Made by a program: the position numbers and the translations under genes. The notes beneath the pieces were generated by a model. That model was not told the origin of the DNA, made no database searches, and saw only the letters and a list, made by a program, of their open reading frames with translations. From Streptomycetaceae bacterium (GTDB taxonomy: Bacteria > Actinomycetota > Actinomycetes > Streptomycetales > Streptomycetaceae): a stretch of 46,938 bases of DNA. Location of the stretch: assembly GCA_019243445.1 (NCBI GenBank), contig JAFAUH010000230.1, positions 1 to 46,938 of the forward strand, in the 5' to 3' direction. Positions 120-34,791 of this stretch are shown here, in pieces (the stretch's first letter is position 1; each line of letters begins with the position of its first letter).

Positions 120-128
120 TTATCCACA
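120..128 (+). promoter_or_regulatory. DnaA box in recA leader
   Basis: TTATCCACA is a perfect 9-mer DnaA box lying in the untranslated leader, between the recA promoter and its start codon. It is a single site; whether DnaA binds here is inference. Confidence 0.4.
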
Positions 129-217
129 GGCTGGAAGGACGTCGGGGCGCATTGTCAGTGGCAGGCGTTAGCGTCTTTGACGTGAAGCGATCGACTCAAG
201 CAAACCGGGTGGAACCC

Positions 218-31079: not shown

Positions 31080-31129
31080 ACGACCTGGGGAGCAGTAGGG
31101 AGCCGGCTCCTTACTGCTCCCCAGGTCGT
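31080..31129. repeat. 50-bp palindrome at the recQ 3' end (solo element)
   Basis: Two 25-bp arms abut without a spacer (31080-31104 and 31105-31129); they pair with a single mismatch. The arm begins ACGACCTGGGGAGCAGTAGG and is shared, with one or two changes, by both ends of the 162-bp element at 36942-37103. The stop codon of recQ (TAA on the minus strand, 31129-31131) overlaps the edge. It can also act as a transcription terminator. Confidence 0.85.
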
Positions 31130-33309
31130 TAGCCCTCGACGGCCAACACTATGGGCAACACTGCCTGCGCACCGGAACGCAGCAGCAGACGGCCTGCGAC
31201 GGCGAGTGTCCAGCCGGTGTCCGCGAGATCGTCCACCAGCAGCACCGGGCCGCTCAACGTGACGAGCTGCCGGGCCAGTTCGGCCGGGACAGTGAAGACG
31301 TCGTGCAGTGCGCGAAGCCGCTGGGCGCTGTTGCTGCGGGGGATCCGTTCCGGAGCCGCTCCGTCCACGTAGCTGACGCGGCCCAGCAGGGGTATGCGTC
31401 CGACCTTGGCGATCCGCGTCCCGAGCGATTCGATGAGCCGAGGCCTGGTACGTGAGGCGATCGTGACGACGCCGACCGGCCGGGAGGGTGCACCGGAATC
31501 TTCACTCGCCCATCCGCCGGGTCCCTTGGCCCAGTCGGCGAGCATCCGCACAACGGCGTCCGCAGCCTCGCCCGGCACTTCGCCGTCGAGTGCGTCCTTG
31601 GCGAACAAAGGCCGCAACCGGTTTCCCCAGCCGATGTCGGAGAGCCTGCCCAGCGCGCGGCCGGTGAGTGTCTGTTCGCCCGGTGGTATGCGGCCTTTGA
31701 GGTCGATGCCCACCGTGGGCATACCGGTCGGCCACATCCGGCGGGGCTCCACTTCGACGCCCGACCGACCCAACGCCACCCGGGCCGCGTCCAGTGCGCT
31801 GCTGGAGACATCGGCGCCGAACCGGGCTCCGGCGCAGTTGTCGCACCGGCCGCACGGCACGGCCTGTTCGTCGTCCAACTGGAGCCGCAGATACTCCATC
31901 CTGCACTGCGTCGACGTCGCGTAATGGCGCATGGACTGCTGCTCCGCCTCACGCTGGCGCGCAACCCATGCGTAGCGCTCTGCGTCATAGCTCCAGGGCC
32001 GGCCCGTGGCAGTCCAGCCACCACGGACGCGGCGCACGGCCCCGTCCACATCAAGCACCTTAAGCATGGTCTCCAGACGCGAGCGCCGCAGTTCTACCCG
32101 GGCCTCCAGTGCGGGCAGTGACAGCGGCCGATCAGACTCGGCCAGCACGCGCAGTGTACGGCGCACGTGTTCTTCCGCAGGGAACGCCAGCGACGCGAAG
32201 TAGCGCCAGATCGCCTCGTCCTCGCGGCCTGGCAGCAGTAGCACCTCTGCGTGGTCCACGCCCCGCCCCGCGCGGCCGACTTGCTGGTAATACGCGATGG
32301 GCGACGACGGGGAGCCGACATGCACGACAAAACCGAGGTCGGGCTTGTCGAACCCCATGCCCAGTGCCGACGTGGCCACCAGGGCTTTCACCCGGTTCGC
32401 CAGTAGATCGGCCTCGGCGGCCCGCCTGTCGGCGTCTTCGGTCTTGCCGGAGTACGAGGCGACGGCGTAACCGCGTCCGCGTAGGAAGGCAGTCACTTCC
32501 TGTGCGGACGCGATGGTCAGGGTGTAGATGATGCCTGAGCCCGGCAGTGTGCGGAGGTGGTCGGCGAGCCACGCCAGCCGGTGAGCGGCGTCAGGAAGCC
32601 GCAGGACGCTCAGGGCCAGGCTCTCGCGATCCAACGGGCCGCGAAGGACGAGCACTCCTTCGTCGCCGAGCCCCTCGCCGTTCATTTCTGCCGTCCCCAA
32701 CTGTTCGGTGATGTCGGCGGTCACCCGTGCATTCGCCGTTGCCGTCGTGGCCAGCACTGGGGTGCCGGGCGGGAGTTCGGCGAGCATGGTGTGCAACCGC
32801 CGGTAGTCGGGCCGGAAATCGTGCCCCCAGTCCGAGATGCAGTGCGCCTCGTCCACGACCAGCAGGCCAGTCGTCGCGGCGAGTTTGGGAAGCACCCCGT
32901 CGCGAAAGTCCGGATTGTTGAGTCGCTCTGGACTCACCAGCAGCACCGCGACGTCGCCCGCCGCCACCTCGGCCTGTACCTCGTTCCACTCCTCGGTGTT
33001 GGCCGAGTTGATGCTGCGGGCACGGATGCCCGCGCGTTGGGCGGCTTCGATCTGGTTGCGCATCAGCGCAAGCAACGGTGAGACGATCACCGTAGGACCG
33101 CTGCCCTGTTCGCGCAAGAGTGCCGTGGCCACGAAATACACTGCGGACTTGCCCCAGCCAGTGCGCTGCACTACGAGTGCACGCCGCCGGTTGGAGACGA
33201 GCGCCTCGATTGCCCGCCACTGGTCCTCGCGCAGCCGTGCTGCGCCGGAATGATCGCCGACGAGACGGCCGAGTACGGCATCGGCAGCGGAGCGCAGTGA
33301 TTCGTTCAT
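31129..33309 (-). CDS. recQ: RecQ helicase fused to a phosphoribosyltransferase-like domain
   Basis: ATP-dependent 3'-5' DNA helicase. The 726-residue product has the RecQ core: RTGWGKS (Walker A variant), SPLLALMRNQ, VDEAHCISDWGHDFRPDY, TATAN, ATSALGMGFDKPD and YYQQVGRAGR. The zinc site (CRMEYLRLQLDD then CGRCDNC) follows. The C-terminal ~200 residues lack a clear HRDC domain and instead contain a PRPP-binding-type loop, VLLVDDLADTGWT (about residues 690-702), preceded by VGVVTIASRTRPRLIESL, as in ComF/PRTase proteins. ATG 33309 gives MNESLRSAADAVLG. The gene ends inside the palindrome at 31080-31129. Such fusions seem common in actinobacteria, from memory. Confidence 0.92.
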   Translation of the reverse strand: MNESLRSAADAVLGRLVGDHSGAARLREDQWRAIEALVSNRRRALVVQRTGWGKSAVYFVATALLREQGSGPTVIVSPLLALMRNQIEAAQRAGIRARSINSANTEEWNEVQAEVAAGDVAVLLVSPERLNNPDFRDGVLPKLAATTGLLVVDEAHCISDWGHDFRPDYRRLHTMLAELPPGTPVLATTATANARVTADITEQLGTAEMNGEGLGDEGVLVLRGPLDRESLALSVLRLPDAAHRLAWLADHLRTLPGSGIIYTLTIASAQEVTAFLRGRGYAVASYSGKTEDADRRAAEADLLANRVKALVATSALGMGFDKPDLGFVVHVGSPSSPIAYYQQVGRAGRGVDHAEVLLLPGREDEAIWRYFASLAFPAEEHVRRTLRVLAESDRPLSLPALEARVELRRSRLETMLKVLDVDGAVRRVRGGWTATGRPWSYDAERYAWVARQREAEQQSMRHYATSTQCRMEYLRLQLDDEQAVPCGRCDNCAGARFGADVSSSALDAARVALGRSGVEVEPRRMWPTGMPTVGIDLKGRIPPGEQTLTGRALGRLSDIGWGNRLRPLFAKDALDGEVPGEAADAVVRMLADWAKGPGGWASEDSGAPSRPVGVVTIASRTRPRLIESLGTRIAKVGRIPLLGRVSYVDGAAPERIPRSNSAQRLRALHDVFTVPAELARQLVTLSGPVLLVDDLADTGWTLAVAGRLLLRSGAQAVLPIVLAVEG

Positions 33310-33360
33310 GCCTTCATGCAACCTGATGCCACTGACATCAGGCGAACTCGTTGAGGATCC

Positions 33361-33450
33361 TGTGGAAAACCCGTCCCTCGATCGAGCACGGAGAGACAAA
33401 GCGGCTAATCTGACAATATGCGGCAGTTGTCCACAGGGTAGTTATCCACA
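33361..33450. promoter_or_regulatory. Cluster of three DnaA boxes between recQ and the DUF4192 gene
   Basis: TTGTCCACA (33427-33435, the form preferred in Streptomyces oriC) and TTATCCACA (33442-33450, the E. coli consensus) lie 15 bp apart in direct orientation. A third, TTTTCCACA on the minus strand (33361-33369), has one mismatch. All are in the 180-bp divergent spacer, so DnaA could regulate recQ, the DUF4192 gene or both, or be titrated there. Confidence 0.6.
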
Positions 33451-33489
33451 GGGGTAGCGCTGCCTGATCAGACGCGAAATCTTCTCGCC

Positions 33490-34791
33490 ATGACCCAACA
33501 CACCGATTCCTCGCGTTCTTCGTGTCCCTCAGAGCCGTCAAAGCCGTCAGGGCCGTCAGGGCCGTCAGAGGAAACACAGGTCACCCTGCGCGGCCCGGCC
33601 GATCTGGCCGATGCTCTCCCGTACCTGATGGGTTTTCACCCGGACGACAGCATCGTCATGATCGCGCTGCATGGAGCGCGCGGCCGCTTCGGCGGCCGCC
33701 TGCGTCTCGGTATCCCGGCCACCACCGATGAATGGCCCGATGTGGCAGCGCAACTCGCCGACTGTCTTATTCAAAGCAGTGGTCGTCGCGGCAGGCCCGA
33801 CGGCATCGCCGTGTATCTCTGCCAGGACCCGCTCGGCAACGAGACACCGGTGCAGGCGATGGAACGCCTCCGGCCGCTCGCCCAGCATTTGCGTACCGCC
33901 TGCGGTTCACTCGATGTGCCCGTGGTCGAGGCGCTGTGCATCAGTGCAGGGCGCTGGTGGTCCTACTGCTGTCCGGACACCGATTGCTGTCCGCCCGAGG
34001 GCGGTCTGCTCACCCGGGAAGGCACCTCCGTGATGGCAGCCGCAGCTGCGTATGCCGGGATTCAAGTCCGCGGTTCACTCCGTGAGATGGAAGCCCGCTT
34101 CGCACCGTTCGAAGTGCCGCGGGCAAGCCGGCAGGAGGAAGCGCTCGACGTAGCCTGCGCCAAACTGCTGCCGCGCCTTCTCGCCACGGACGAGTGCGAC
34201 GTTCTCAGGGAGGAGACGATCGGCCTGGCCGCCTCCGTAATGGAGCGGTTTCGCGCAGCTCCGGCGACAGGGGAAGGCCCGGCGGACGACGCCCGGGACG
34301 ACGAACTGATCACTGACGACGAGGCGGCCGCTCTCATCCTCGGCCTCCAGGACAGAGGAGCACGGGACCGGGTGGCGGAATGGATGGAAGAATCCGACGC
34401 TGCAGCAGCAGTCCGACTGTGGCGCGCCCTGGCCCGACGCTGCGTCGGCGCCTACACCGACCATGCCGCACCCCCGCTCACCCTCGCCGGATGGGTCTCC
34501 TGGTCACTCGGTGACGAGCCGACCGCCCGTGTCGCCTTCAACCGGGCGCTGGACGCCGACCCGGACTACACCTTCGCCAAACTCCTGCACCAGGCGTGCA
34601 ACCACGGGCTTGACCCGGAGCCGCTGCGCCGCTGCCTCCGGCAAGAACGCGGCAGGCGAGCCGGGCGATCACCGCGGCCCTCGCCGGACGGCCGCCCGGA
34701 GGGCCGGCCCGGCGAACGGCGCCGGCCTGGGCGCTCTAGGCGACCAGGCGCGGCAAGGAAGGCACGCGGGCACGCAAAGGGGGAGCCGTGA
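33490..34791 (+). CDS. DUF4192 domain protein
   Basis: The 433-residue product resembles the DUF4192 proteins of Streptomyces, typified by LRGPADLADALPYLMGFHPDDSIVMIALHG near the N-terminus, a conserved SAGRWWSYCC-C-PEGG cysteine-containing centre, and a helical C-terminus including LAGWVSWSLGDEPTARVAFNRALDADPDY, which looks TPR-like. Function unknown. The first residues are a Ser/Pro-rich repeat encoded by a 9-bp tandem repeat. After ~residue 385 the sequence becomes Arg/Pro/Gly-rich, suggesting read-through into GC-rich repeat DNA. ATG 33490 lacks a strong SD. It may respond to DnaA through the boxes upstream (inference). Confidence 0.75.
   Translation: MTQHTDSSRSSCPSEPSKPSGPSGPSEETQVTLRGPADLADALPYLMGFHPDDSIVMIALHGARGRFGGRLRLGIPATTDEWPDVAAQLADCLIQSSGRRGRPDGIAVYLCQDPLGNETPVQAMERLRPLAQHLRTACGSLDVPVVEALCISAGRWWSYCCPDTDCCPPEGGLLTREGTSVMAAAAAYAGIQVRGSLREMEARFAPFEVPRASRQEEALDVACAKLLPRLLATDECDVLREETIGLAASVMERFRAAPATGEGPADDARDDELITDDEAAALILGLQDRGARDRVAEWMEESDAAAAVRLWRALARRCVGAYTDHAAPPLTLAGWVSWSLGDEPTARVAFNRALDADPDYTFAKLLHQACNHGLDPEPLRRCLRQERGRRAGRSPRPSPDGRPEGRPGERRRPGRSRRPGAARKARGHAKGEP
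33532..33567 (+). repeat. 9-bp tandem repeat in the DUF4192 gene
   Basis: Four units of (G/A)RGCCGTCA type (33532-33540, 33541-33549, 33550-33558, 33559-33567) encode EPS-KPS-GPS-GPS. The period of 9 keeps the frame. Confidence 0.8.

Follow-up and report, generated by a model that had tools for sequence, protein, structure and literature searches.

The window, meaning the whole stretch of 46,938 nucleotides analysed here, raises the question of why DnaA boxes lie between a recQ-family helicase gene and a divergently oriented DUF4192 gene. A first-pass annotation had described a DnaA-box cluster in this spacer and proposed DnaA-dependent regulation or titration. Our analysis suggests that phased boxes located before recQ, DUF4192, recA and comF across the Streptomyces family reflect direct control of repair and recombination genes by DnaA.

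Boxes and promoters of the recQ-DUF4192 spacer

The recQ gene (31129-33309, minus strand, 726 aa) encodes a RecQ-like protein with DEAD, Helicase_C and RecQ_Zn_bind domains, while the DUF4192 gene (33490-34791, plus strand, 433 aa) matches the PF13830 profile with an E-value of 2e-86. The ORF finder placed the start of recQ at TTG 33399 (31129-33399), which would wrongly cover the minus-strand box described below. ATG 33309 is the likelier start because the promoter and the start region are conserved there. From this ATG (33309, minus strand) to the ATG of DUF4192 (33490, plus strand), the spacer measures 180 bp.

All three sites reported in this spacer were confirmed. The two perfect boxes of different type, TTGTCCACA (33427-33435) and TTATCCACA (33442-33450), lie on the plus strand 15 bp apart from start to start, with a gap of 6 bp. 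Both are oriented toward DUF4192 and begin 63 and 48 bp before its ATG, respectively. The near-match, TTTTCCACA(GG), is located on the minus strand (33369-33361), oriented toward recQ and 60 bp before its ATG. The boxes match the 9-mer TTRTCCACA or the broader consensus YYVTCCACA. The window contains TTRTCCACA three times, whereas dinucleotide shuffling predicts 0.15 occurrences (at most one in any of 100 shuffles); the 5.36-Mb genome contains it 75 times against 10 for the reversed pattern. The chance of finding two boxes in one 180-bp spacer is approximately 3e-6, or 6e-5 assuming that most boxes are intergenic. The boxes are therefore genuine and far exceed chance; however, they form two units, the minus-strand box for recQ and the plus-strand box for DUF4192, rather than the single cluster initially described.

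recQ is probably leaderless. A promoter of the PafBC/RecA-NDp type, TGTCAGTG-N8-TTGCAT, lies 6 nt before its ATG (33316-33337, minus strand), with TTGCAT in place of the TAnnnT of the PafBC motif. On the other side, alignment of DUF4192 promoters pointed to a putative -10 element, AATCTT (NAnnnT), followed by a 6-nt spacer (33478-33489, plus strand), and transcription of DUF4192 would likewise start leaderless at its ATG. An NAnnnT hexamer recurs 6-7 nt before the ATG in these promoters, and the -10 hexamers are weak. No PafBC motif was found in the aligned DUF4192 promoters. We also considered an ECF-type promoter (GGAAT-N17-GTC) for DUF4192 and dropped it, as a leaderless promoter with an NAnnnT -10 element appears to fit the sequences better.

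Conservation and phasing of the boxes

We examined the regions upstream of DUF4192 in 26 named Streptomycetaceae loci and in 61 sampled genomes of the family. A plus-strand box precedes DUF4192 in nearly all Streptomycetaceae loci checked, and most of those with recQ as the divergent neighbour also carry the facing minus-strand box. No box was found before DUF4192 in L039/L065 and in a few distant loci. Conservation upstream of orthologous recQ/DUF4192 pairs, the check proposed by the first-pass annotation, thus proved positive. The second direct box of the window, at the position of TTGTCCACA, is mostly absent from relatives, and most recQ orthologues carry TTGTCCACA or TTATCCACA where the window has the variant TTTTCCACA. 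Most box variants of orthologues still conform to the YYVTCCACA consensus. Outside the Streptomycetaceae, a perfect box occurs within 350 bp upstream of 13 of 60 actinomycete DUF4192 genes; several others have a near-match, and the position is often the same (such as in L238, L240 and L242).

Across loci, the facing boxes are 10 to 66 bp apart, but the distance of each box to its own gene is kept. Furthermore, the DUF4192 box is retained in five loci without an adjacent divergent recQ (L038, L044, L047, L077, L078), which shows that the boxes are not one shared cluster. A single cluster serving both genes was therefore ruled out, each promoter having its own oriented box. These same features bear on a possible RNA structure, a hairpin or terminator made by the facing boxes in the divergent spacer. 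A perfect palindrome of both boxes does occur in some species (L042, CCTGTGGATAACGTTATCCACAGG), but in many loci the arms are unpaired (TTG facing TTA), the variation being confined to a position that DnaA tolerates. The spacing between the arms is as loose as the 10-66 bp given above, loci without recQ keep one arm, and the boxes would not be transcribed at all if the promoters are leaderless. We discarded this extremely improbable explanation, as the arms vary independently.

In 68 distinct Streptomycetaceae promoters, with ATGs chosen within 40-74 bp of the box, the box starts 48-50 bp before the DUF4192 ATG in 32 and 59-61 bp before it in 33; the remaining spacings are 69 bp (two promoters) and 52 bp (one). 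These counts of spacing and presence come from related genomes and not from independent samples. The spacings lie about one or two helical turns apart, the two main classes differing by about one turn. Likewise, 12 of 15 recognisable recQ promoters carry a box, in all cases 60-63 bp before the ATG and upstream of TGTCRGTG-N8-TTGCAT. On visual reading, a CTGGYGG-like element occurs near -37 in both DUF4192 spacing classes and also at comF. The layout across these promoters mostly comprises a single box, or two boxes 13-18 bp apart.

The sites, their conservation and their phasing are solid. Box position relative to the start codon is conserved while box number varies, as in a DnaA-regulated promoter and not as in a titration locus. 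Such fixed, phased positions argue for promoter regulation, and selection seems to act on the position of the box and not merely on its presence. The constant spacing fits a protein contacting RNA polymerase, and it is very likely that the boxes regulate the promoters. Titration was the other function originally put forward. In Streptomyces coelicolor, clusters of high-affinity DnaA boxes near oriC titrate DnaA, and the boxes of the present genome could merely do the same without any effect on transcription, all the more so as they are over-represented genome-wide and form other clusters on contigs C4 and C380. Titration, however, would work at any distance from start codons, yet spacing is kept within 1-3 bp in two classes and in different neighbourhoods. 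Regulation is the part of the initial proposal that is supported; titration alone, which leaves the 48/60-bp spacing unexplained, is a very unlikely account.

The same layout at recA, comF and other genes

The perfect box that had also been reported in the recA leader is present and belongs to the same architecture. This box, TTATCCACA(GG) (120-128, plus strand), precedes TGTCAGTG by 24 bp and the GTG of recA by 62 bp. The PafBC/RecA-NDp promoter, TGTCAGTG-N8-TAGCGT (153-174, plus strand), is located 7 nt before GTG 182, a probable leaderless start. Hence, both recA and recQ have a promoter of the TGTCRGTG-N8-TAnnnT type near the start codon, recA matching it exactly. The recA box was found at one place in 21 of 30 genomes and was absent from nine, among them the only genome from the same genus (L158; the others are L159, L160, L162, L163, L167, L169, L170 and L171). 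In these nine the PafBC promoter is unchanged, and most of them have the recQ box together with its PafBC promoter.

The strict PafBC/RecA-NDp motif (TGTCRGTG-N8-TAnnnT) occurs 38 times in the genome against once for the reversed pattern, many copies being followed within a few nt by a start codon. The motif is clearly conserved in this relative of Streptomyces venezuelae, in contrast to the report that the mycobacterial PafBC motif is seemingly not conserved in S. venezuelae (PMC9380542). Boxes also precede the PafBC-type promoter of recD2 (contig C398). Among the 31 inspected copies of the 38 strict motifs, only those of recA and recD2 have a box, which indicates that the box is a separate element; we therefore rejected the possibility that it is an intrinsic part of every PafBC promoter.

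A search for TCCACA followed after 15-40 bp by TGTCRGTG-N8-TnnnnT returned matches in 60 of 61 genomes, compared to two matches for the reversed control. The combination of TCCACA with a PafBC-type promoter was present in 62 of 158 actinomycete genomes. Although gaps of 15-40 bp were allowed, the distance was 22-26 bp in 45 of the 47 Actinomycetes examples fetched. Furthermore, the three bases before TCCACA were left unfixed in the search, and two leading pyrimidines were found in 37 of the 47 (25% expected, P = 2e-14). The actinobacterial DnaA consensus likewise begins with two pyrimidines. On reading of the translations, at least 21 of the genes behind these examples are recA, and others resemble radA, a recC-like gene and DUF222/HNH genes. 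Two genomes, G187 and G197, have about ten copies each of the TCCACA and PafBC-type arrangement. Two of the three copies fetched from G187 precede similar DUF222/HNH-like genes, which suggests a dispersed damage-inducible family; the repeats of G197 look like a different repeat.

comF of this genome, identified by a match to the NCBIfam ComF family that scores below the cut-off, has a box 48 bp before its ATG. The box was present in 23 of 30 loci of relatives (all of L357-L379), mostly 48-50 or 60-63 bp before the start, and absent from the other seven. We searched four genomes for a box followed by 26-40 bp, AnnnT, 6-7 bp and ATG, and obtained 48 matches compared to 12 in the reversed control. 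According to NCBIfam names, the genes of relatives with good boxes at the phased distance include uvrC, a second RecQ, an Lhr-type helicase and comEA (a match below the cut-off), in addition to DUF4192 and comF, and radA is among the matches with CCGTCCACA. Several genes unrelated to repair share this layout: an SBF transporter, gcvH, a response regulator, and TetR, M23 peptidase and S9 peptidase genes, the last few named by reading their translations. We tentatively propose an Actinomycetes-wide DnaA regulon for recombination and a DNA-uptake-like function, comprising recA, recQ, recD2, radA, uvrC, the Lhr-type helicase, comEA, comF and DUF4192 (RadC-like), in which DnaA would act as a phased activator at leaderless promoters; at this breadth, we consider the proposal somewhat less probable than its opposite.

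Of 158 actinomycete genomes sampled, 130 contain the DUF4192 family, which is nearly absent from the open-access literature searched, where one paper mentions it. An AlphaFold model of the protein (mean pLDDT of 83) has a mixed N-terminal domain and an all-helical C-terminal half. The best PDB matches of the N-terminal domain are all RadC (E-value of 2e-3, TM-score of 0.65 on target length), and the C-terminal half gives TPR-like structural matches. Searching the PDB by sequence returned insignificant matches only, and no HxH metal motif is evident in the protein. The predicted structure thus offers a weak lead toward a RadC-like fold of the N-terminal domain, and a protein of that kind would be in keeping with a set of recombination genes.

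DnaA as the putative regulator and relation to known systems

The protein that binds these boxes is quite likely DnaA. In DUF4192 promoters, the box is part of an extended site, rGTTRTCCACAGG, with a preceding G in 57 and a following G in all of the 68 promoters. The oriC of this genome adjoins dnaA on contig C173 and contains 11 boxes with at most one mismatch, of which eight have the preceding G and eight the following G. The variants TTGTGCACA, TCATCCACA and CTGTCCACA are common to oriC and promoter boxes. The promoter boxes therefore have the same extended sequence and the same variants as the oriC boxes of this genome, which favors DnaA.

Further boxes occur elsewhere in the genome. Three perfect boxes and a near-match lie between pheA and metG (contig C380, L326, 1149-1487), a cluster that we take to be possibly D78 of S. 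coelicolor. Three perfect TTATCCACA boxes and one CTATCCACA follow a 306-aa gene at a locus that is not oriC (contig C4, L317, 3184-3360). On contig C1 (L001/L002), two boxes each lie near an inverted repeat, ACCGA...TCGGT, that resembles operators of the TetR type; one of these boxes is upstream of an E1 dehydrogenase gene.

Another activator with the same 11-12 bp specificity (GTTRTCCACAGG) could run a recombination or competence-like regulon without DnaA. Single asymmetric sites with an invariant G at position 10 would suit such a protein, but the site, its flanks and its tolerated variants equal the oriC boxes of the same genome, and we know of no regulator with such specificity apart from DnaA. 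E. coli DnaA prefers double boxes, binding mainly pairs 2-3 bp apart and often skipping single ones (PMC11317965). Pairs with this gap are not general in the promoters analysed here (the gap is 6 bp in the window), which counts against DnaA. On balance, we regard another activator as unlikely.

We propose that these boxes serve as operators for a back-to-back pair of promoters, both probably leaderless. DnaA would occupy an asymmetric sequence, rGTTRTCCACAGG, which precedes the putative starts of recQ and DUF4192 by about 45 or 56 bp, as it does those of recA, comF and some other repair and recombination genes. Bound DnaA would lie on the same helix face as RNA polymerase and change transcription, most likely as an upstream activator. 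It would act beside PafBC at recA and recQ, and replace a good -35 element at DUF4192 and comF. As the level and ATP state of DnaA follow replication initiation, so might these promoters. If DnaA is the binding protein, activation is the likely outcome. DnaA could instead mainly repress the same promoters and limit repair-gene expression, as E. coli DnaA represses uvrB, recN and dinJ (PMC6015884) and most described DnaA targets are negative (PMC11317965). However, the box lies upstream of the putative -35 region at two phased distances, the usual place of an activator and not one for promoter occlusion, making repression improbable. Taken together, we estimate a probability of about 60% that DnaA, or a protein of the same specificity, regulates and probably activates repair and recombination genes from upstream of leaderless promoters.

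If so, the replication initiator would act directly on the repair and recombination programme of organisms that have PafBC-type promoters in addition to the SOS response, and repair and recombination capacity would be tied to replication initiation. There would be a measurable DnaA regulon with a defined geometry for DnaA-dependent activation, a process whose mechanism is described as poorly understood (PMC11317965). DUF4192 would gain its first functional context.

The first-pass annotation considered coupling of recQ or DUF4192 to replication initiation new. Control of repair genes by DnaA is known in principle from E. coli (uvrB, polA, recN) and Bacillus subtilis. The open-access literature searched contained neither this phased gene set nor any description of actinobacterial boxes at recQ-DUF4192, at recA or at comF; the regulon itself is a plausible candidate. 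Clusters H69, H24 and D78 near the Streptomyces oriC have been studied for titration and initiation control, and, like the boxes of this study, they are perfect boxes outside oriC; the recQ-DUF4192 site is not known to be among them. Streptomyces DnaA also regulates its own gene (PMC8203912).

E. coli DnaA represses uvrB, recN and dinJ, activates polA and regulates nrd (PMC6015884, PMC8203912, PMC11317965). Boxes in repair-gene promoters and a link between initiator and repair are thus shared with E. coli, whereas the targets are different here, the boxes are single and phased, the promoters are apparently leaderless with PafBC-type instead of LexA sites, and activation is likely. B. subtilis has a DnaA-dependent, RecA-independent response to replication stress (cited in PMC8203912). 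In both cases DnaA would be a transcriptional arm answering disturbed replication; unlike that response, the present one would involve an actinobacterial gene set and promoter architecture, and include recA itself. Finally, promoters of the PafBC/RecA-NDp regulon are known in mycobacteria (PMC11804915, PMC5656591), and recA and recQ have promoters of this type near their start codons here as well. In contrast to the mycobacterial regulon, a DnaA box is added upstream here, and DUF4192 and comF carry the box without a PafBC site.
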